NCBI GenBank assembly: GCA_017622875.1
Contig: JAGAQG010000031.1
Span: 1 to 41,241 of the forward strand
Source: Lachnospiraceae bacterium
GTDB taxonomy: Bacteria > Bacillota > Clostridia > Lachnospirales > Lachnospiraceae
DNA: 41,241 nucleotides
Reading direction: 5' to 3'
Position 1 is the stretch's first letter, and each line of letters opens with the position of its first letter. A program made the position numbers and the translations under genes. The notes beneath the pieces were generated by a model, which did no database searches, was not told the origin of the DNA, and worked only from the letters and a program-made list of their open reading frames with translations. Positions 1,144 through 32,652 of the stretch are shown here, in pieces.

Positions 1144-1172
1144 TTGACAACACAAAAAGACGGGTGTATTAT
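1144..1172 (+). promoter_or_regulatory. Sigma-A promoter of glnN
   Basis: TTGACA at 1144-1149 and TATTAT at 1167-1172 are separated by exactly 17 bases. The predicted start of transcription is at about 1179. The -10 region and the bases around it (GGGTGTATTATCAC) are repeated almost exactly in the ammonium transporter promoter at 16685-16713 on the minus strand. Confidence 0.85.
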
Positions 1173-1187
1173 CACGACATGAAAGCA

Positions 1188-1220
1188 AAGGCGCTTTGGA
1201 GAAATCCAAGGCGCCTTTTT
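1188..1220 (+). terminator. Start-proximal terminator-like hairpin (attenuator) in the glnN leader
   Basis: A 12-pair stem (1188-1199 with 1206-1217, one G-U pair, loop AGAAAT) is followed by T residues, only about ten bases after the predicted transcription start. It would end transcription after about 40 nt unless bypassed. The same stem sequence (GGCGCTTT...) is found in the amt leader. A regulatory attenuator is inferred; the factor is unknown. Confidence 0.7.
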
Positions 1221-16503: not shown

Positions 16504-16640
16504 AATCTCTTCCTCCTCTTTTACGGAAACTTCAAATAGAAAAAGATGTGTATTCAGATTCTCTTTCTCTGCCTCTGATCACACACCCTTGTGTTCTTTG
16601 ATTTCCCGTATTATTTTTCTGCTTTCACAGAATAGAAAAA

Positions 16641-16665
16641 GCGCCTTAGGTAATTCCTAAAGCGC
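16641..16665 (-). terminator. Start-proximal terminator-like hairpin (attenuator) in the amt leader
   Basis: On the minus strand GCGCTTTAGG (16656-16665) pairs with CCTAAGGCGC (16641-16650), one G-U pair and a 5-base loop, followed by TTTTTC. It begins about ten bases after the predicted start of transcription. Its 5' arm and the preceding bases match the glnN leader hairpin almost base for base. Confidence 0.7.
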
Positions 16666-16684
16666 CTTTGCTTTTCATGTTGTG

Positions 16685-16713
16685 ATAATACACCCATCTT
16701 TTTCCATTGTCAA
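16685..16713 (-). promoter_or_regulatory. Sigma-A promoter of amt
   Basis: Read on the minus strand: TTGACA at 16713-16708, a 17-base spacer, TATTAT at 16690-16685. The GGGTGTATTATCAC segment is shared with the glnN promoter. It is back to back with the plus-strand purF promoter, whose -35 box is 16 bases away. Confidence 0.85.
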
Positions 16714-16728
16714 CACCTTTTTTTTCTC

Positions 16729-16757
16729 TTGACGTAATTTTTTTCCAGTGCTACAAT
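16729..16757 (+). promoter_or_regulatory. Sigma-A promoter of purF
   Basis: TTGACG (16729-16734), a 17-base spacer and TACAAT (16752-16757). Transcription is predicted to begin near 16764, about 200 bases before the purF start codon. Confidence 0.8.
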
Positions 16758-16770
16758 ACACACGAACAAG

Positions 16771-16806
16771 GGTGTTCAGGACTTCGGTCTTGGACACTCT
16801 TTTTTT
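16771..16806 (+). terminator. Terminator in the purF leader (attenuator)
   Basis: GTGTTCAGGAC (16772-16782), a TTCG tetraloop and GTCTTGGACAC (16787-16797) form a fully paired 11-bp stem with G-U pairs, followed by TCTTTTTTT. It stands directly after the promoter, well before the gene, so it must be bypassed for purF expression. Confidence 0.8.
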
Positions 16807-16960: not shown

Positions 16961-18343
16961 ATGGTTGAATATGAATGGGATAAATTAAAAGAAGAATGTG
17001 GCGTTTTCGGTATCTTAGATCACACCGGTGCCAATGTAGCAAATTCAATTTATTATGGTCTTTGTGCGCTGCAGCACCGCGGACAGGAATCGGCTGGAAT
17101 CGCAGTCTGCAATACAGGCGGACCACTGGGAAATCTCACCTGTCATAAGGACATGGGACTGGTAAATGATATTTTTACCCCTGAAATACTCTCCGAATTA
17201 TCAGGAAATATCGGTATCGGTCATGTACGTTATTCTACAACCGGAGAAAGCAATGTAAAGAATGCCCAACCTATTGCCATCAACTATTTCAAAGGCACGC
17301 TTGCCCTTGTACATAATGGAAATCTTACAAATATTGACGAATTAAAAGGAACGCTTCAGGAAAATGGAGCAATTTTTCATTCTACCACTGACTCAGAAAT
17401 CATCACTTACCAGATTGCTTTAGAACGCACAAAAACTCCTAATATTGAAACAGCGGTATACAACACTGCTGAAAAATTAAAGGGCGGCTTTGCATTGATC
17501 ATTATGAGCCCACAAAAGCTCATTGGCGTGCGTGATCCATGGGGACTTAAACCTCTGTGCCTTGGTATTAGGGACGGAAGTTATTGTCTTGCTTCTGAGA
17601 CCTGCGCTTTAAATGCCATCGGTGCAGAATTTATTCGCGACATCGAACCGGGTGAAATTATTACAATTTCTGAAGACCAGATTACTCATATTGAAAAGCT
17701 TCCATCTGTAAAGCATGCACATTGTATTTTTGAATACATTTACTTTGCAAGACTGGATTCTTCCATAGATGGTATTAATATCTACGATTCCCGTATCCGC
17801 GCAGGCAAAGCTCTTGCAGAGGCTTACCCTATAGATGCTGATCTGGTATCTGGTGTACCTGATTCGGGACTTACAGCTGCCATGGGATATGCCAAACAAT
17901 CTGGTATTCCATATGAACCTGTATTTTATAAAAACAGTTATGTGGGACGTACCTTCATAAAACCGACTCAGAAAGAAAGAGAATCTGCGGTTCACATTAA
18001 GTTAAACGTAATTCCAGGCATTGTAAAAGGCAAAAAAATTGTCCTTGTAGATGATTCGATTGTACGTGGTACGACTATCGCGAATTTGATTACCATGCTA
18101 AAAAAGGCTGGTGCAAAAGAGGTTCATGTTCGCATCAGTTCCCCTCCATTTTTACATCCATGCTTTTATGGCACAGATGTACCGAGCAACCATCAGCTCA
18201 TTGCATCTTCTAATACCACCGAAGAAATCCGCAAACACATTGGGGCAGATTCCCTTGGGTATCTGAAGATTGAAGATTTCAAAAAGATGGTCGGTGATCT
18301 GCCAATTTGTAAAGCTTGTTTCGACGGGAAATATCCCGTATAA
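16961..18343 (+). CDS. purF: Amidophosphoribosyltransferase (canonical)
   Basis: First step of purine synthesis: PRPP plus glutamine to phosphoribosylamine. 460 residues. A short propeptide (MVEYEWDKLKEE) precedes the mature N-terminal catalytic Cys13 in CGVFGI, followed by LQHRGQESAGI of the class II glutaminase. The PRTase part has the PRPP loop VLVDDSIVRGTT near 363-374. The four Cys positions that bind the 4Fe-4S cluster in the Bacillus subtilis enzyme are present (HCIFEYIYFARLDS, HPCFYG, ICKACFDG), so this is the iron-sulfur, oxygen-sensitive type. It has its own promoter with an attenuator-like leader and ends in a strong terminator. It is separated from the purE and second purF genes on the other strand. 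Confidence 0.97.
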   Translation: MVEYEWDKLKEECGVFGILDHTGANVANSIYYGLCALQHRGQESAGIAVCNTGGPLGNLTCHKDMGLVNDIFTPEILSELSGNIGIGHVRYSTTGESNVKNAQPIAINYFKGTLALVHNGNLTNIDELKGTLQENGAIFHSTTDSEIITYQIALERTKTPNIETAVYNTAEKLKGGFALIIMSPQKLIGVRDPWGLKPLCLGIRDGSYCLASETCALNAIGAEFIRDIEPGEIITISEDQITHIEKLPSVKHAHCIFEYIYFARLDSSIDGINIYDSRIRAGKALAEAYPIDADLVSGVPDSGLTAAMGYAKQSGIPYEPVFYKNSYVGRTFIKPTQKERESAVHIKLNVIPGIVKGKKIVLVDDSIVRGTTIANLITMLKKAGAKEVHVRISSPPFLHPCFYGTDVPSNHQLIASSNTTEEIRKHIGADSLGYLKIEDFKKMVGDLPICKACFDGKYPV

Positions 18344-22776: not shown

Positions 22777-23334
22777 CTACCGGAAGCGACTGCATTCGAA
22801 ATGCTCCATCGTTTCCAGACAGTTTAATACTTCCTGATATCTTTGCTGCAGAGGTCCATCCTCCACTACAATATCCAGAGAAGCAGCAATGCTGTCCAGA
22901 AGACGGTCATCTATTCTCCCTCTTAGATCCCGTAACATCTCCAGCTTTTCAGCCAATGTATCAAGCTCTAAAAATGCCAGAAGATCCGGATTGACTCCGA
23001 CAAGTTCTGGGTCAGGCTCATTTTCAGCAACACTTTCTTTGATTTCTTTTACCTCTGCTGCCTCTTCTTTTTCAGGTTTAACATCAGTATTTCCAAAGTT
23101 TTCCGATTTTATGAGCTCAAATCTGTATTTTTGTGTTACATGCGGGTATTTTTCTCTGTCCACTTCACTGACAAACATGTCATAAGGTCTTACATAGGTG
23201 CGAAAGTCCCCATATAATGCCTGATAAACTACCATCTTTTCCCCTGTTTCAGAATGCTCTGCCACAGTAATGATCTGATAAAGCTTATCTTTAAAGTGTC
23301 TGTAAAATTGTCCCGGCTTCACCAATCTTTCCAT
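22777..23334 (-). CDS. DUF1653 domain protein
   Basis: 185 residues from the ATG at 23334, whose A is shared with the stop of the preceding purF-like gene (TAATG) and which has GAGG 5 bases upstream; an earlier in-frame start at 23367 lies inside that gene. Residues 5-70 match DUF1653 (VKPGQFYRHFKDKLYQIITVAEHSETGEKMVVYQALYGD, FVSEVDREKYPHVTQKYRFE), a small beta-barrel-like domain of unknown function. An acidic linker (VKPEKEEAAEVKEIKESVAE) follows, then a helical C-terminal part. Translational coupling to the purF-like gene is clear. The function is not known. Confidence 0.85.
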   Translation of the reverse strand: MERLVKPGQFYRHFKDKLYQIITVAEHSETGEKMVVYQALYGDFRTYVRPYDMFVSEVDREKYPHVTQKYRFELIKSENFGNTDVKPEKEEAAEVKEIKESVAENEPDPELVGVNPDLLAFLELDTLAEKLEMLRDLRGRIDDRLLDSIAASLDIVVEDGPLQQRYQEVLNCLETMEHFECSRFR

Positions 23335-24755
23335 TAATCCTCTTTTCCATTCCAGCAATATGTACAAAGCTTACATGGCTCAATTCCAATGGCTTCGATC
23401 ATATCATCCAGTCTTAAGAATTCCAGAGTTGTAAAGTTCAACTGTCTGCGGATTTCTTCCACCATTCTCTGGTATTTTGGATTGTCAGGATCTGCATATT
23501 CCTGTAATAATTCTTCCGATACATCCTCTGTTCCTTCGAAATCACGGATGATTCTTCTTGTAATCAAGTCCATAACAGATTTAGAACGTGAAAAGTTCAG
23601 ATATTTACATCCAAATAATAATGGCGGACATGCAGGTCTTACATGTACTTCTTTTGCACCGTTTCTGTAAAGGAATTCTGTTGTCTCACGAAGCTGTGTA
23701 CCACGTACGATAGAGTCATCAATTAACAGAATCTTCTTATCTGTAATCAGTTTATGCACTGGAATCAGTTTCATACGTGCAACCAGATTTCTCTGTTTCT
23801 GATTTGTCGGCATAAAAGAACGTGACCAGGTCGGTGTATATTTAATAAATGGTCTTGCATATTCGATATCTGTAGAATTTGAATATCCAATGGCATGGGC
23901 AAGTCCGGAATCAGGAACACCTGCCGCATAGTCTGGGAATACCTTTCCTGCATCACGTTTTGCAAGCATTTCACCGCAGCGGTAACGCATTTCCTCTACA
24001 TTGACACCTTCGTAGGAAGCTGTTGGATAACCATAGTATACCCAAAGGAATGTACAAATCTTCATCTCATCCCCGCGTTCACCAATGGTCTTTCCACCTT
24101 CTGCATCGAAGAAATAAACCTCTGCCGGTCCTAATTCATAATAATCTTCATAGTCAAGATTCATGTATGCAAAGCTTTCAAAGGATGCACACATAGCGCC
24201 TTCCTTACGACCAATCACAACCGGAGTTCTTCCCAGACGGTCTCTTGCTACATAAATTCCTTCTTTTGTCAAAAGCATGATTGACAGAGAACCTTGTACC
24301 AGTCCCTGTACATAACGGATACCTGCTAAAATACTGTGTTTTGTACACATTAATGCTGCTACCAGCTCTGTTGCATTGATCATACCTCCGCTCATTTCCT
24401 GGAAATGGCAGGTTCCTTCTTCATATACCTTTTTCACTAATTCGTCATGATTGTTGATCTTACCAACAGTTGCGATTGCAAAGCTTCCTAAATGGGACTG
24501 GATAAGGAGTGGCTGCGGTTCATAGTCTGAAATACAGCCGATACCCATGTTTCCATGCATTTCATTTGCATCTTTGTCAAATTTTGTACGGAACGGTGCA
24601 TTTTCAATGTTATGGATAGCGCGGCTGAAACCACTTTCCTCGTTATAAACAGCCATACCGCCACGTCTTGTTCCCAGATGAGAATGATAATCTACACCGT
24701 AAAATAATTCTGTTACACAATCTTCTTTGGATGCTACACCAAAAAATCCACTCAT
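23334..24755 (-). CDS. Second PurF-like protein with Ser in place of the catalytic Cys
   Basis: 473 residues aligned end to end with PurF but divergent. The N-terminus MSGFFGVA matches CGVFGI with Ser2 at the nucleophile position, without propeptide, and RGQESAG reads RRGGMAV. The PRTase half is intact: ILLIDDSIVRGTQ near 341-353. The four Fe-S cysteines of the Bacillus-type enzyme are kept (KICTFLWVYYG, LLFGCKYL, PCKLCTYCWNG). So cluster and PRPP site are preserved while glutaminase chemistry is altered; it may use free ammonia, rely on Ser as nucleophile, or act in regulation or another pathway. It lies 32 bases after purE and overlaps the DUF1653 gene. The canonical purF is at 16961. Confidence 0.88.
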   Translation of the reverse strand: MSGFFGVASKEDCVTELFYGVDYHSHLGTRRGGMAVYNEESGFSRAIHNIENAPFRTKFDKDANEMHGNMGIGCISDYEPQPLLIQSHLGSFAIATVGKINNHDELVKKVYEEGTCHFQEMSGGMINATELVAALMCTKHSILAGIRYVQGLVQGSLSIMLLTKEGIYVARDRLGRTPVVIGRKEGAMCASFESFAYMNLDYEDYYELGPAEVYFFDAEGGKTIGERGDEMKICTFLWVYYGYPTASYEGVNVEEMRYRCGEMLAKRDAGKVFPDYAAGVPDSGLAHAIGYSNSTDIEYARPFIKYTPTWSRSFMPTNQKQRNLVARMKLIPVHKLITDKKILLIDDSIVRGTQLRETTEFLYRNGAKEVHVRPACPPLLFGCKYLNFSRSKSVMDLITRRIIRDFEGTEDVSEELLQEYADPDNPKYQRMVEEIRRQLNFTTLEFLRLDDMIEAIGIEPCKLCTYCWNGKED

Positions 24756-27042: not shown

Positions 27043-27936
27043 TTAATTTTTATAATATTTTTGAATATAATTAATAAACACACTAATAAATTGCTTTAGC
27101 AGATAGTCCTTTTTATATATTATATAAAATTTTCTTCCGCTTGTATATCGGGAAAATTCAAAAGACAGCAATCTTTTTTCACGAATCATGTTCTCTGCTG
27201 CTTTTTTTGAAACAATGGAAATCCCAAGGCCCGCCGCCACCGAATTTTTGATTGCCTCCGGGTCATTCATATAAGCCACAACTTTCAGAGAATCTTTCGA
27301 AATCCCCTCTTTTTCTAAAAACAGTTCTGCTGCCTTTTTGGTTCCGCTTCCTTTTTCCCTCAAAATGACCGGCTCCTGAAACAGCTCTGTAATCCAGGAT
27401 TCCTTTCGATGAAGCTCCTGAAAATGTTCTGTCACAGGAGTGATCACCACCAGCTCATCCTCATAGAAAGGAATACACTCCAGATGTTCATCTTCACATT
27501 CCATTCCCACCAGGCCAACATCCATCCGGTCGTCCATGACCCCTTCAATGATTCCTCTGCTGTCACTCTGTATCGAATGAAAAAAGATTTCCGGGTATTC
27601 TCTGCAAAATTCCGGCAGAAATTCCGGCAATATGTACGCGGATGGAATTGTGGATACGCCAAGGCGAATGATCTTTTCGTCAGCACTTTTCCACTTTTGT
27701 AAAAGGTTGTCCCTAAGATCCAGCATTTTTACCGCACAGTCATAGAGTTCTGATCCCCTTTTTGTCAGTTCAATGCTCTTTGTTGTACGGATGATCAGCT
27801 TTGACTCCAGTTCCTTTTCCAATGCCTGAATATGGGTACTGATGGTCGGCTGGGAAATATATAACTGCTTTGCCGCTTCGGTAAAACTTTTATAGACCAC
27901 CACCGCCACAAAGGATTCTAACTGTTTTAGTTCCAT
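27043..27936 (-). CDS. LysR-family regulator of the selenium-metabolism type
   Basis: 297 residues: an N-terminal winged HTH (about 1-62, [35 protein letters not shown]) and a C-terminal substrate-binding domain (about 90-290, [33 protein letters not shown]). It overlaps the upstream class V desulfurase gene by 10 bases, so both are co-translated, and it lies opposite the YedE-TusA-DUF3343-SelD genes. A CysB-like LysR protein in this setting matches the group annotated as selenium-metabolism-associated LysR regulators. Control of the divergent yedE promoter (29185-29214) is inferred. The ligand is not known. Confidence 0.87.
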
Positions 27937-29090
27937 AAGATTTCCTCCAATGCCTTTACTGCCAGAAGCACTTCCTCCTCTGTATTAAAATATCCAAAGG
28001 AAAAACGAATTGTTCCCATCGGATAGGTACCTAACGTTTTATGAGCAGACGGCGCGCAGTGAAGACCTACTCTTGTCATAATTCCATAATTCTTGTCCAA
28101 AAGATATGCCACCTCTGAAACATCTCTGCCCGGTGTCTGGATAGAAACCACTGCTGTACGCCCGTCAGCATTCTCTTTCCCGATCAGCCTGATCTTTTTC
28201 CCTTCTGAATCTAATTCTTTCATTTTCTCAAGGAAAAGCTTTGTCAGTAGGACTTCCCTCTGATGAATGTTCTGAATCCCCGTATCTAAAATCCAGTTCA
28301 GCGCCGCGTGCAGTCCAAAGATTCCCGGCAGGTTCATGGTTCCCGGCTCAAAACGGTCCGGCATAAACTCTGGGATTTCTTCAGTATGACTGATGCTTCC
28401 TGTTCCTCCTGATAATAACGGTGTGATTTTCCCGATCATCTCTTCCTGTAAGATAAATCCTCCAATACCTTGCGGACCATATAATCCTTTATGCCCTGTA
28501 AAACACAACACGTCAATATTCATTTCCTTCATGGAAATCGGCATTACTCCCGCTGTCTGGGCACAGTCTGCGATAAATTTCAGCCCATGTGCTTTACAGA
28601 ACTCCCCGACTTCTTTCAATGGCAAAATTGTGCCGCATACATTACTGGCGTGCATCATCACCATCGCTTTTGTATTTGGTCTTAAAAGCCCTTCCATGGC
28701 TTCCAAAATCAGCTCTCCTTGCGCATTGCATGGGATCCTGTCAAATTCAACGCCTGTTTCCTCTAACTGTCTGACAGGGCGCATCACCGCATTATGCTCC
28801 ATTGACGATACCAGGATATGGTCGCCTGGGTTTAAAAAGCCCTTCAGTACCACATTCAGGCTCTCTGTAACATTTTTCGTAAACACTACATTTTTACAGT
28901 CCGGCCCGTCAAACAATTCGCAGAGAAGCTCTCTTGTTTCTAAAATGACCTCCTCTGTATCATAAGCATTTTCATAACAGCCGCGGTTAATATTGCAGCC
29001 ATTGTCTGTCATATATTCGAAAACGGCCTGTGCCACACACTCTGGCTTTGGATAGGTGGTGCTGGCCTGATCCAGATATATTTTTTTCAT
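27927..29090 (-). CDS. Class V aminotransferase-fold cysteine desulfurase/selenocysteine lyase-like enzyme
   Basis: 387 residues of a PLP enzyme of the NifS/CsdB group. It begins [16 protein letters not shown]; the PLP lysine is in [16 protein letters not shown] near 199, and the catalytic cysteine is Cys345 in [16 protein letters not shown]. In this family the enzyme frees sulfur or selenium from cysteine or selenocysteine. Between a LysR regulator and the selenium transporter/SelD genes, a role in supplying reduced selenium to SelD is likely; supply of sulfur cannot be excluded. It is divergent from yedE with 183 bases between. Confidence 0.92.
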
Positions 29091-29184
29091 CTTCTGTTAC
29101 CTTCTGTCTCTTCATTCATTTCTTCCATCATACCACATTCATTTGCATTTTCAATAAATTCATTAAAAGTATCAATAATTCAAA

Positions 29185-29247
29185 TTGGATTAATCATTCT
29201 TAGAATGTTATAATCTTAACAATCCATGTGTGCCTGCGGTGCACATG
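29185..29247 (+). promoter_or_regulatory. Promoter and leader hairpin of the yedE selenium operon
   Basis: TTGGAT (29185-29190), an 18-base spacer and TATAAT (29209-29214). Directly after the predicted start, CATGTGTGCC (29225-29234) pairs with GGTGCACATG (29238-29247) over a TGC loop with two G-U pairs. The hairpin has no T tract, so it is a stabilising or regulatory leader rather than a terminator. Confidence 0.65.
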
Positions 29248-29273
29248 ATTACAGTAAGAGAAAGGGAAATATT

Positions 29274-30359
29274 ATGAACCAGAAAAAAGAAGTAAGAAAC
29301 ATCCTGATTGCCGGTCTGGTAACAGGAATCCTCGGGGCTGCTTTAGTTCTTTTTGGCAACCCGAAAAACATGGGCTTTTGTATCGCCTGCTTCCTGCGTG
29401 ACACAGCAGGAGCCCTCGGCCTTCACAGAGCCGAAGCGGTACAGTATATCCGTCCGGAAATCATCGGACTGGTACTTGGAAGCTTTATCGCAGCAATGAT
29501 GAGCAAGGAATTTCGTCCAAAGGGCGGTTCTGCTCCACTGACACGTTTTATCTTAGGCTTTTTCGCAATGATCGGCTGCTTAATGTTCTTAGGCTGTCCA
29601 TTCCGTATGGTGCTTCGTCTTGCAGGCGGTGACTTAAATGCGGTATTCGGTCTTGTAGGATTTGTGTTAGGTATCTTATGCGGTATCTTCTTCCTGAACA
29701 AAGGCTACTCTTTAAAACGTACCTATGTAATGCCTAAATGCGAAGGATTTTTATTCCCGGCAATTCAGGCTGCTTTCCTTATTTTATTAGTAGCTGCTCC
29801 GGCATTTATTTTATTCTCGCCGGAAGGTGCAGGTCCTGGCGCACTTCATGCTCCGATCATCATCAGCCTGATCGCAGGTCTTTTAGTTGGTGCCATGGCA
29901 CAGAAAACAAGACTCTGTATGGTTGGCGGTATCCGTGATTTCGTACTTTTTAAGGATGTCAAATTACTCTCCGGATTCGTAGCAGTATTCGCAGCTGCAC
30001 TCGTTGTAAATCTCATCTTAACAGGTGCAACAGAAGGTACATACTTTACATTATCCATGACAGACCAGCCAGTCGCTCACGTTGACGGCCTCTGGAATGC
30101 ACTCGGTATGTTACTTGCAGGTTTTGCTTGTACCCTCTTAGGCGGCTGTCCGCTCCGTCAGCTGGTACTTGCAGGAGAAGGAAACACAGACAGTGCCGTG
30201 ACAGTTCTTGGCCTTATGGTCGGTGCTGCATTTGCACACAACTTCGGTCTTGCTTCCAGCGGTGCAGGCCCAACAGACAATGGTAAAATCGCAGTTATCA
30301 TCGGTATCGTCGTAGTTGCAGCCATCGGCGCACTCAATACCTTCAAAAAGGAGAATTAA
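29274..30359 (+). CDS. yedE: YedE-family putative selenium transporter
   Basis: 361 residues and about ten membrane segments, of the YeeE/YedE (TsuA-like) transporter family. Conserved cysteine motifs typical of thio/seleno-compound uptake are visible: GFCIACFLRD near 31-40, GCPFRM near 108, KTRLCMVGG near 213 and GGCPLRQ near 290. The ATG at 29274 behind AAAGGG is preferred over the upstream in-frame ATG at 29226, which lies within the leader hairpin. The stop is followed two bases later by the TusA-like gene, so they form one operon with DUF3343. Uptake of selenium rather than sulfur is inferred from this neighbourhood. Confidence 0.93.
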   Translation: MNQKKEVRNILIAGLVTGILGAALVLFGNPKNMGFCIACFLRDTAGALGLHRAEAVQYIRPEIIGLVLGSFIAAMMSKEFRPKGGSAPLTRFILGFFAMIGCLMFLGCPFRMVLRLAGGDLNAVFGLVGFVLGILCGIFFLNKGYSLKRTYVMPKCEGFLFPAIQAAFLILLVAAPAFILFSPEGAGPGALHAPIIISLIAGLLVGAMAQKTRLCMVGGIRDFVLFKDVKLLSGFVAVFAAALVVNLILTGATEGTYFTLSMTDQPVAHVDGLWNALGMLLAGFACTLLGGCPLRQLVLAGEGNTDSAVTVLGLMVGAAFAHNFGLASSGAGPTDNGKIAVIIGIVVVAAIGALNTFKKEN

Positions 30360-30361
30360 TT

Positions 30362-30568
30362 ATGACAACATTAGATGCAAGAGGACTTTCCTGTCCGGAA
30401 CCAGTCATCATGATTCAAAAAGCAATGAAGACAAAAGAAGCTTCTTATGTTATGATGGTAGATAACCACGCTTCCAAAGAAAACGTAACCCGCTTTGCTG
30501 AAAAAGCAGGATATACCGTTACAATCAAGGAAAATGGCGGCGAATATACTTTAGAAATGAGAAAATAA
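30362..30568 (+). CDS. yedF: TusA/YedF-like sulfur (selenium) carrier protein
   Basis: 68 residues forming a single TusA domain: LDARGLSCPEPVIMIQKAM with the conserved Cys11 in the CPxP motif, then a second strand-helix unit. TusA-family proteins carry persulfide, and in selenium operons probably perselenide. Full-length YedF proteins have an extra C-terminal DsrE-like domain, which is absent here. AAGGAG lies 7 bases before the ATG. It sits between the transporter and DUF3343 with almost no spacing. Confidence 0.92.
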   Translation: MTTLDARGLSCPEPVIMIQKAMKTKEASYVMMVDNHASKENVTRFAEKAGYTVTIKENGGEYTLEMRK

Positions 30569-30569
30569 G

Positions 30570-30821
30570 ATGATTTATATTGCAACCTTCTACTCCCACT
30601 TTGGGGCGGTACGCTTCAAAAAAGAATGTAAAAAAGAAAACATCACTGCAGAGGCAATGCCGGTTCCAAGAGACCTCAGCAGCAGCTGTGGCACCTGTGT
30701 AAAATTCGAAACTGATAAGGATATCGCTTCATTCACATGGAGTCAGGAAGTAGAACAGGTCGTAGAAATCACAGAATCAGGCTATGTTACACACTATCAT
30801 GTAGAACTTTCTAATAGTTAA
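30570..30821 (+). CDS. DUF3343 putative Se/S carrier-like protein
   Basis: 83 residues matching DUF3343, with MIYIATFYSHFGAVRFKKECK at the start, a CGTC motif (Cys40-Cys43) and acidic strands at the end. The family occurs beside yedE, yedF and selD and is thought to handle bound sulfur or selenium; the activity is not proven. It begins one base after the TusA gene stops and is followed by a strong terminator that closes the operon. Confidence 0.9.
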   Translation: MIYIATFYSHFGAVRFKKECKKENITAEAMPVPRDLSSSCGTCVKFETDKDIASFTWSQEVEQVVEITESGYVTHYHVELSNS

Positions 30822-30825
30822 AAAT

Positions 30826-30851
30826 AAAACGCGGGATTTCTCCCGCGTTTT
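30826..30851 (+). terminator. Terminator after the yedE operon
   Basis: AAAACGCGGGA (30826-30836) pairs perfectly with TCCCGCGTTTT (30841-30851) around TTTC. A TATAAT at 30856-30861 preceded by TG follows immediately and may start selD transcription. Confidence 0.85.
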
Positions 30852-30892
30852 ACTGTATAATGATAACAAACATATCAGAATAGGATTTTATT

Positions 30893-31930
30893 ATGGAAAC
30901 AAATATAAAATTAACGAAATTAGCTTCCTGCGCAGGCTGCGGAGCCAAGGTAGGTGCAGGAACACTCAGCCAGATGCTGGAAGGCTTTCAGACACATTTT
31001 GATGAAAGACTGCTGGTTGGATATGACAAAAGTGATGACGCCAGTGTTTTTAAATTAGATGAAGAAACCGCACTTGTTCAGACACTGGATTTCTTTCCAC
31101 CAATCGTGGATGACCCATTTCTCTTCGGACAGATTGCCGCTACGAATGCACTGAGTGATGTCTATGCTATGGGCGGGGAGCCAAGACTGGCTTTAAATAT
31201 TCTCTGTTTAAAAGACAGTATGGGTTCAGAAACTGTACAGGAAATCCTTCGCGGTGGTTATTCAAAAGCCTATGAAGCCGATACCATCATCACTGGCGGG
31301 CATACCATTCATGGAGCTGAGCCACTGTATGGACTCTCTGTTTCCGGATTCGTTCATCCGGACAAAGTACTGACCAACAGCGGTGCAAAACCTGGGGATG
31401 TTTTAATCTTAACAAAACCTTTGGGAATCGGAATCCTCACCACTGCTGCCAAGGCTGATCTGGTGGATGAAATGCTTTTAAACCGCATTTATACACAGAT
31501 GACATTCTTAAACAAGACTGCTGCCCACATTATGAAGAAGTATGAAGTGCACAGCTGTACAGATGTTACAGGATTTTCGTTACTGGGACATTCTTTTGAA
31601 ATGGCACAGGGAAGTGATTGTACAATTCATATTGATGTGGCAAATGTACCATATCATAAAGAAGCATATGAATTTGCCGAAATGGGCTTTATTCCGGCAG
31701 GAGCTTACAGAAACCGCGAATATGCAGAAAATGGTGTCCATGTGGCAGGGGATATCTCCCGCGCAATGCAGGATATCCTGTATGATCCACAGACCAGCGG
31801 AGGACTGATGATCGCAGTCACAGAAAAAGATGCTGATTTTTTGCTTCATGAATTGACGGAATCCGGCGTACCTGCAGCTATGATTGGCTATGTCACCGAA
31901 ACACAGGAACACTCTATTATCTTGAAATAA
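30893..31930 (+). CDS. selD: Selenide, water dikinase (selenophosphate synthetase)
   Basis: Makes selenophosphate from selenide and ATP. 345 residues: the catalytic N-terminus SCAGCGAKVGAG with Cys16 and Lys19, the DDASVFKLD and ATNALSDVYAMGGEP motifs of the ATP-binding core, ITGGHTIHG, DVTGFSLLGH and the C-terminal DPQTSGGLM. The active site uses Cys; many clostridial SelDs carry selenocysteine there, so this form does not itself need the Sec machinery. It follows the yedE operon after a terminator with its own likely -10 box. selA, selB and selC are not in the window, so the end use of selenophosphate is open. Confidence 0.97.
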   Translation: METNIKLTKLASCAGCGAKVGAGTLSQMLEGFQTHFDERLLVGYDKSDDASVFKLDEETALVQTLDFFPPIVDDPFLFGQIAATNALSDVYAMGGEPRLALNILCLKDSMGSETVQEILRGGYSKAYEADTIITGGHTIHGAEPLYGLSVSGFVHPDKVLTNSGAKPGDVLILTKPLGIGILTTAAKADLVDEMLLNRIYTQMTFLNKTAAHIMKKYEVHSCTDVTGFSLLGHSFEMAQGSDCTIHIDVANVPYHKEAYEFAEMGFIPAGAYRNREYAENGVHVAGDISRAMQDILYDPQTSGGLMIAVTEKDADFLLHELTESGVPAAMIGYVTETQEHSIILK

Positions 31931-31944
31931 TTTCATTCAGACAT

Positions 31945-31981
31945 AAAAAAATTCCGGGACAACACACCCCGGAATTTTTTT
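31945..31981. terminator. Terminator between selD and the nucleotidyltransferase gene
   Basis: AAAAAAATTCCGGG (31945-31958) pairs with CCCGGAATTTTTTT (31968-31981): a perfect 14-bp stem usable from both sides. Confidence 0.92.
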
Positions 31982-32012
31982 ATCTAAATTATTTTTTCTT
32001 ATCGCGGATATC

Positions 32013-32594
32013 TTATCCTATACTTTCCGGCGTATCAATGTCCAGTAAACTTTTCGCACAGTCTGCCTCATATAGCAGTATCTCCTGTGGATGCTCCTTT
32101 ATCACTTCCTTGCCATCCACATCTCCATTCAGTGCAAGAAGCTCCGGCACGAATTTTCCCTGAAAGATGACCGGATTTCCCATAATACCTTCATAACTCA
32201 AACAGCCGATTCCTTTATAGGAGCGTTTATACATATGAATGAATCCGAACAGTTCATCCTCCTGCACATAAGGCTGATCTGCTACCGCAAGCATTACGTG
32301 ATCATGCATTCCAATCTCACCGCAGGCTTCAATGCCAAGTCTAATGGAATGAGAAATCCCAAGCTCCTGATTTTTGTTTCTGACTACTTTCAAAAGAAGT
32401 CCCTCTGCTGCTTTTTCGATCTCATCGTAAGCAGTGACCACCACGAGCTCGTATCGATGTGGTTCCTCTTCTTTCATAACTGTCAGAATATCCAGCAGAT
32501 GACGATACATTGGCTTGCCATCTATATTTTCCAGCAATTTGTTTCTGCCATAGCGGCTGGATGGACCAGCTGCCAGATAAATCATATAGACCAT
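32013..32594 (-). CDS. MocA/YgfJ-like nucleotidyltransferase
   Basis: 193 residues from the ATG at 32594. It has the NTP_transf_3 fold: MIYLAAGPSSRYGRNKLLENIDGKPM (nucleotide-binding LAAG and the NKLL motif), VMLAVADQPYVQ (metal-binding Asp), and GIMGNPVIFQGKFV. Such enzymes attach CMP or GMP to molybdopterin; the YgfJ group accompanies selenium-dependent molybdenum hydroxylases. Being convergent with selD suggests that the selenium supplied here may serve a Mo-hydroxylase cofactor, but no hydroxylase gene is in view. An in-frame extension to 32642 has no ribosome site. Confidence 0.85.
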   Translation of the reverse strand: MVYMIYLAAGPSSRYGRNKLLENIDGKPMYRHLLDILTVMKEEEPHRYELVVVTAYDEIEKAAEGLLLKVVRNKNQELGISHSIRLGIEACGEIGMHDHVMLAVADQPYVQEDELFGFIHMYKRSYKGIGCLSYEGIMGNPVIFQGKFVPELLALNGDVDGKEVIKEHPQEILLYEADCAKSLLDIDTPESIG

Positions 32595-32652
32595 TTCATA
32601 TCTCCGATTCTTTGTCGTTATAGATATTTTCTCAAATATCATAACATTAAAA

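Follow-up and report, generated by a model that had tools for sequence, protein, structure and literature searches.

The block upstream of the glnN gene in a Lachnospiraceae genome is a sigma-70-type promoter, and a small hairpin lies almost at the very start of its predicted transcript. Formation of this hairpin excludes that of an intrinsic terminator, and vice versa. The hairpin carries the signature of an ANTAR target, that is, a six-base loop with A at position 1 and G at position 4 (A1 and G4), closed by a C-G pair. The explanation that we favour, with a probability of about 0.8, is that a glutamine regulon is controlled by NitR-like ANTAR antitermination acting on one hexaloop at the 5' end of the RNA. 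The element looks like a known nitrogen switch pared down from two hairpins to one. The mechanism, which is well supported by sequence, would be as follows. RNA polymerase would start a few bases before the stem, and the 16-base hexaloop hairpin would fold first. If this hairpin were left unheld, the terminator would take its loop and 3' half, and transcription would stop at about 40 nt. Under shortage of nitrogen (glutamine), which is the presumed signal, an ANTAR protein of the NitR kind, probably the one encoded beside glnA, would bind the A1/G4 hexaloop and block the terminator, and glnN, amt-PII, purF and the rest of the glutamine regulon would be transcribed. A single hexaloop would be sufficient for this.

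The stretch of DNA that was analysed (the window, 41,241 nt) covers positions 1 to 41,241 of the forward strand of contig JAGAQG010000031.1 from Lachnospiraceae bacterium, assembly GCA_017622875.1 (Table 1). A preliminary description had reported near-identical blocks at glnN (1144-1220, plus strand) and amt (16713-16635, minus strand), and both were re-located at these sites and on these strands. Alignment from the TTGACA box to past the T run gave 72 identical columns, 9 mismatches and 6 gap columns, in line with the reported near-identity. With up to three mismatches allowed, two copies of GTGTATTATCACNACATGAAA, both exact, were found in the window against 0.02 expected, and the pattern of promoter plus ACATGAAA occurred only at the glnN and amt sites across the 2.74 Mb genome. 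No match to the glnN leader was found in the plasmid collection. The hairpins at glnN and amt were far more stable than those of shuffled sequences (z -5.91 and -6.17). The ATG within ACATGAAA does not mark where either gene begins: the glnN frame runs from 1263 and the amt frame from 16503.

Table 1. Features of the glnN, amt and purF leader regions in the window (hexaloops in square brackets)
Feature	Position	Strand	Remarks
glnN promoter	1144..1172	+	TTGACA 1144-1149, 17-nt spacer, TATTAT 1167-1172
glnN predicted +1	about 1179	+	placed from the position of the -10 box
glnN putative antiterminator	1182..1197	+	stem AAAGC/GCTTT; hexaloop AAAGGC 1187-1192 with A1 and G4
glnN intrinsic terminator and T run	1187..1220	+	excludes the hexaloop hairpin and vice versa
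glnN, type III glutamine synthetase, 698 aa	1263..3359	+	PF12437 GSIII_N, 271.4 bits
amt-PII, ammonium transporter fused to P-II domain, 585 aa	14746..16503	-	
amt intrinsic terminator	16635..16669	-	
amt putative antiterminator	16659..16674	-	AAAGC[AAAGGC]GCTTT
amt promoter	16685..16713	-	TTGACA-17-TATTAT
purF promoter	16729..16757	+	TTGACG-17-TACAAT
purF putative antiterminator	16764..16777	+	GAAC[AAGGGT]GTTC, hexaloop with A1 and G4
purF intrinsic terminator and T run	16768..16806	+	
purF, glutamine-dependent amidophosphoribosyltransferase	16961..18343	+	TIGR01134, 497.9 bits against a cut-off of 350

The copies at glnN and amt are accompanied by a third element, overlooked earlier, on the plus strand before purF, within the intergenic region that also contains the amt element. 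Its stem differs from the glnN stem by paired changes, and its loop bases A1 and U6 are also paired in the predicted fold. It scored 30.8 bits with the covariance model R1 (see below), yet it is among R1's own 68 sequences and is unlisted in the genome searches. A fourth copy in the same genome (C10:67523) precedes a gene for an ABC transporter ATPase, of amino-acid type by reading, and is directly followed by a second, weaker unit. Another match in this genome (C27:15069) was rejected, as it resembles an ordinary terminator with no promoter seen. Elsewhere in the window, a second PurF-like protein is encoded at 23334-24755 on the minus strand (175 bits, below the purF cut-off of 350), and the open reading frames at 27927-32642 read like what we take to be a cluster for selenium use (cysteine desulfurase-like, YedE-like transporter and SelD-like products).

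The terminator of the preliminary description was confirmed; what had been missed is that its 5' part can alternatively fold as the hairpin AAAGC[AAAGGC]GCUUU. The predicted glnN RNA starts with ACAUGAAAGCAAAGGCGCUUUGG..., and at nascent lengths of 20-34 nt its lowest-energy fold includes the hexaloop hairpin. From about 36-40 nt the terminator AAAGGCGCUUUGGA/UCCAAGGCGCCUUU captures the same bases in the predicted folds, the energies being about -23 kcal/mol for the terminator and about -4 kcal/mol for the hexaloop hairpin. The same fold switch was predicted for the amt leader, and the purF leader, transcribed from its own divergent promoter, has GAAC[AAGGGU]GUUC. The two structures exclude each other, as they share bases and paired changes were seen in both folds. 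A decoy function of the short transcript towards the ANTAR protein was considered and is unlikely, because the product of about 40 nt takes the terminator fold.

Conservation of the element was assessed in a scan of named genomes, in which the best 80 of at least 583 confirmed relatives yielded 80 glnN loci. The block was present in 77 of these 80; it was absent from L081 and L082, and L009 had no upstream DNA. Among the leaders is that of glnN in a cultured relative, Blautia schinkii DSM 10518 (L033). The loop had A1 and G4 in 74 of the 77 block-bearing loci, A1 and A4 in two (L018 and L025) and G1 and G4 in one (L065). The L018 and L025 leaders have promoter and terminator with the loop AAGAGC, and may mark an altered recognition rule. 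Alignment A1 was assembled from 68 elements, consisting of 65 of the 80 glnN loci and the three window copies. The 15 loci outside it comprise, besides the three named above, L030 (the same as L028), L008 and L075 with an insert between promoter and hairpin, seven in which the block is present and the promoter was unmatched by the rule used (L007, L047, L062, L064, L066, L069 and L072), and L046 and L080, in which the block is present with an irregular or long terminator.

In this alignment loop position 1 was A in 67 and position 4 was G in 66 of the 68 elements, and the closing C-G pair was invariant (68/68). The hexaloop stem was 95.0% paired, with two-sided changes in four of its five pairs, and exceeded nearly all of 500 shuffles by five measures. 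For the terminator the corresponding values were 97.4% paired and two-sided changes in 10 of 14 pairs. From these two-sided changes it follows that both folds have been kept. The preliminary description had named lack of conservation of the hairpin upstream of nitrogen genes in relatives as the observation that would speak against it; the hairpin proved to be kept there.

The covariance model R1, which encodes the terminator pairing only, was run on 100 genomes of the family and matched at E≤0.01 in 70 of them. These and the following survey counts are model matches, part of which were read individually. Ninety-two loci were read, namely the glnN, amt and glnQ-type sites of the genome itself and 89 more sites at E≤3.5e-4; overlaps among them include L104/L207, L108/L154 and L115/L192. 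Sites with E between 3.5e-4 and 0.01 were left out, as were two opposite-strand partial matches at G075:C50. Exceptions taken in above 3.5e-4 were four glnA-ANTAR or ANTAR-lacking sites (G088, G027 and G070 being listed) and the sites in G038 and G096. Downstream genes were named by tblastn with the proteins of this genome and by Pfam, a few by reading alone. They were glnN (30 loci), amt-PII or PII (21), purF (8), gltB (7), asnB (6), pyrG (5), transporters (3), carA (1), glnA (1) and other or none (10). Eighty-two of the 92 loci were thus followed by nitrogen or glutamine-using genes or by amino-acid-type transporters. The products of asnB, purF, pyrG, gltB and carA use glutamine as nitrogen donor. 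No clear nitrogen role was seen downstream of L113, L164, L166, L168, L170, L180, L187, L193, L199 and L205; L193 and L199 have genes for circularly permuted ATP-grasp proteins there (by Pfam for L193, by sequence likeness for L199). At L094 (1501-2135) a gene for an IS200-type transposase (PF01797) sits between the element and purF.

In a second set of 97 distinct elements, found with R1, whose species partly overlap those of the first, G4 was present in 97 and A1 in 95, bases that R1 partly favours. In the upstream stem 96.3% of the cells were paired, and two-sided cells numbered 45, where shuffles gave 12.0 +/- 2.7. Two of the five covariation measures did not exceed the shuffles (two-sided pairs 3 against 2.9, pair types 6 against 6.0). 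The pair adjoining the closing pair was G-C in 62, A-U in 20 and G-U in 14 elements. The upstream stem is stronger evidence than the loop bases, because R1 favours A1 and G4 yet leaves that stem unpaired.

The genome of the window contains one ANTAR gene above the cut-off (PF03861, 60.7-62.8 bits against 27.3) and a second match of 21.4 bits below it. The former is the last gene of a pyrG-gltB-gltD-glnA-ANTAR operon, which is the gene neighbourhood of a NitR-type protein. ANTAR genes above the cut-off were found in 89 of the 100 family genomes, as a single copy in 87. At E≤1e-3, R1 matched in 57 of the 89 genomes with ANTAR and in none of the 11 without (p = 4e-5; this and the following p values overstate and are guides only, because the genomes are related and not independent), leaving 32 ANTAR-positive genomes with no match at this threshold. 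At E≤0.01 the numbers were 68/89 and 2/11; the two matches in ANTAR-lacking genomes (G038 and G096) look like ordinary terminators. In a class-level sample of 137 genomes matches occurred in 32 of 74 with ANTAR and in 4 of 63 without (p = 5e-7). Six of the class matches (L213, L214, L220, L221, L225 and L237) have A at loop position 4 and were set aside as ordinary terminators by their look, no promoter being seen; four of them are in ANTAR-positive genomes (G112, G143, G191 and G216). Without these six the comparison was 28/74 against 2/63 (p = 3e-7). The four ANTAR-lacking class genomes with a match were G157 and G179 (A4, no promoter seen), G109 (partial, no promoter) and G132. The last is a genuine exception: it has two good elements and gave no ANTAR match even at E≤10 in its 200 contigs, although an ANTAR gene is present in G204, a member of its genus.

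In 19 of 57 genomes the ANTAR gene had an element no more than 25 kb away, where about 1.7 such genomes would be expected at a genome size of 3.0 Mb, an excess to be read with the fact that nitrogen genes cluster anyway. In G002, G088, G027 and G070 the element directly precedes glnA-ANTAR (E 1.7e-4 to 7.5e-3). Because the element heads glnA-ANTAR in these four relatives, autoregulation of the ANTAR gene is suggested.

Thirty ANTAR proteins were read, the one encoded in this genome and the 29 best-scoring others, which is a non-random draw. The residues mapped to K149, E160 and M172 of EutV were invariant in all 30. The column of EutV Tyr164 was occupied by His in 24, Phe in 5 and Tyr in 1, and the contacts corresponding to Arg142, Lys143, Lys147, Arg175 and Arg177 were variable. 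No Pfam receiver match was obtained at E≤0.001 for the N-terminal half of the protein of this genome, and the column of the putative phospho-acceptor, placed by eye, held Cys in 22, Ser in 3 and Ile in 3 of the 30 proteins, not the receiver Asp of a EutV-like two-component regulator. As there is no receiver match and the acceptor column is mostly Cys, control of the protein by a ligand or partner, not by phosphorylation, is suggested. It is fairly probable that Lachnospiraceae and other Clostridia control their glutamine regulon in this way, through one hexaloop at the 5' end and an ANTAR protein whose receiver domain is degenerate.

The same attenuator could be worked by a non-ANTAR factor, such as a different RNA-binding protein or glutamine binding directly to the leader RNA. 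Binding of the ANTAR protein to the element is a prediction, several of the EutV contact residues differ, and G132 has elements with no ANTAR gene detected, all of which would suit such a factor. We nevertheless regard it as unlikely, since A1, G4, the six-base loop and the closing pair are the determinants of ANTAR targets given in PMC3369931, and the element co-occurs and shares an operon with the ANTAR gene. Moreover, none of the matches read in the other ANTAR-lacking genomes (G038, G096, G109, G157 and G179) has a promoter by eye, and four of these five, that in G109 being the exception, have A instead of G at loop position 4. For an aptamer 16 nt would be very small, and no Rfam family reached its cut-off for glnN: a search of the whole window at the gathering threshold found only a tRNA, and none of six matches in the stretch 1100-1300 at E≤1 came near its cut-off.

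A strong sigma-70-type promoter was found at 74 of the 97 elements, against 1.4 expected from mononucleotide shuffles. In 58 of these 74 the stem starts 8-12 nt past the -10 box, and because of this tight spacing the hairpin would start only a few bases into the predicted transcript. A second, upstream A1/G4 hexaloop with a stem of at least four pairs was not enriched (2/97 against 2.7 by chance). With a stem of at least three pairs there was a slight excess (11/97 against 6.7 +/- 2.1), made up mostly of A-T stems over or beside the promoter. A second A1/G4 hexaloop inside the terminator was seen in 4 of the 97 elements, which is 4 of the 85 hairpins with six-base loops there, a count made with no shuffle control.

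The characterised ANTAR targets are dual hexaloops. Ramesh et al. (2012) found that deletion of the first hairpin (P1) abolishes induction, and reported ANTAR motifs before genes for ammonium transporters, P-II and glutamate and glutamine synthases (PMC3369931). Antitermination by EutV depends on the presence of both hexaloops as well as on their spacing (PMC3369931, PMC8934654). Walshe et al. (2022) showed that EutV contacts one hexaloop and binds isolated single ones, and redefined the minimal binding motif; antitermination still took two, for which they gave a model, and they asked what natural role single hexaloops might have (PMC8934654). A survey of 2021 also required dual stem-loops (PMC8164766).

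The element might accordingly be a canonical dual-hexaloop target whose partner is supplied by a longer transcript, a neighbouring tandem unit or a second RNA. Besides the published requirement, units in tandem (L089, L110, L115/L192 and L206; three units in L210) could provide one, and a few leaders have candidate pairs. Among 11 glnA leaders of class genomes with no R1 match, two (L259 and L264) carry a pair of A1/G4 hexaloops, where about 0.05 such leaders would be expected, and the glnN leader of L260 has a possible A-T-only hexaloop 14 nt upstream. Because of these three leaders, two-hexaloop relatives may exist. L259 and L264 were not accepted as canonical dual hexaloops, the second loop of L264 being A-T only and that of L259 being the apical loop of the terminator. 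Since the spacing between promoter and hairpin is tight and upstream hexaloops with stems of at least four pairs are at chance level, while the scan does flag a dual motif at the L271 leader, we think it improbable that a partner hexaloop is involved. The element was not assigned to the dual-hexaloop ANTAR targets (P1 and P2 with a short linker), because no P1-like hexaloop was enriched and the stem lies in the first predicted transcribed bases.

It is also possible to imagine an unregulated promoter-proximal terminator, or a 5' hairpin that stabilises the RNA, kept merely because it is common to these genes. The great stability of the terminator next to a weak hexaloop hairpin would agree with this, but the hexaloop stem, whose 5' strand is idle in termination, keeps its pairing through two-sided changes and the block precedes functionally linked genes of different families, which makes such a structure very unlikely. 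That a repressor or activator binds a DNA operator which overlaps the promoter is hardly credible in spite of the identity of GGGTGTATTATCAC at glnN and amt, because in the profile of 74 promoters of relatives aligned at the -10 box nothing stood out except both hexamers, an upstream A-tract and the beginning of the hairpin, and the hairpin varies by paired substitutions. The preliminary description had left the choice between nitrogen control at the RNA and at the DNA level; the hairpin kept before nitrogen genes argues for the former, and for the latter only promoter features were seen.

ANTAR antitermination through a single hexaloop has clear relatives among known systems. The preliminary description knew of no described element of this form. 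This held for a lone hexaloop at the transcript's 5' end, of which no description was found in the available parts of the literature, and did not hold for the loop and the exclusive terminator, which are those of ANTAR antitermination (PMC3369931, PMC8934654). The search for a single-hexaloop or Lachnospiraceae version, which was negative, covered open-access papers. With the dual-hexaloop targets of EutV at eutP, NasR at nasF and AmiR at amiE the element has in common the A1/G4 six-base loop, the closing pair, the overlap with the 5' arm of the terminator and the presence of an ANTAR gene in the genome. It differs from them in having one hexaloop instead of P1 plus P2, placed at the predicted 5' end with no room for P1. 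NitR (Stutz et al. 2007) induces the GS/GOGAT genes of Clostridium saccharobutylicum on nitrogen limitation, according to a review (PMC6316151), and a similar role was proposed for Clo1313_2030 of C. thermocellum, an ANTAR protein in a GS/GOGAT cluster (PMC4676874). Compared with NitR as that review describes it, the protein considered here is likewise an ANTAR protein tied to the genes of glutamine synthetase and glutamate synthase, and the gene set here also takes in type III glutamine synthetase, amt-PII, purF, pyrG, asnB and carA. The RAT elements of BglG, LicT and SacY are also single protein-held hairpins exclusive with a terminator; they are, however, 29-30 nt long and bound by CAT domains (PMC3369931, PMC3369936), whereas the hexaloop hairpin has 16 nt.

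The element resembles the pyrG attenuator of Bacillus subtilis in lying right after the start site and in including pyrG among its genes. In B. subtilis extra G residues are added at the GGG start under low CTP; unlike there, the start region here is ACAU-like and the loop is conserved.

If the proposed mechanism is correct, antitermination would proceed without the P1 'recruitment' hairpin, which would be dispensable perhaps because the protein has time to bind while the polymerase is still close to the promoter. The roughly one hundred natural leaders with a single hexaloop and a terminator, lying before the main genes of ammonium and glutamine use, make it possible to test directly if one hexaloop is enough, a question tied to the work of Walshe et al. 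(2022). The elements would also yield a sequence-based prediction of the nitrogen regulon in a large clade.

Several arrangements of the attenuators were observed in addition. The divergent amt and purF genes of the window, each with its own attenuator, have a common intergenic region (16637-16806); pyrG and glnN form a divergent pair of the same kind in another genome (L104/L207), and L054 and L075 have a similar arrangement by eye. The tandem attenuators mentioned above (L089, at 1501-1604, and those of L110, L115/L192 and L206) stand in series before one gene with their units 9-68 nt apart, and the three units of L210 are hexaloop-terminator units in series. In the glnA leader of L259 (around 2336) one A1/G4 hexaloop lies at the base of the terminator. 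The dual motif of L271 (6540-6620), from another genome of the class sample, is canonical-looking and lies between a histidine kinase gene and an EutA-like gene (eut-like by reading), with a 7-bp AATGAA hexaloop 6 nt before the one that overlaps the terminator.
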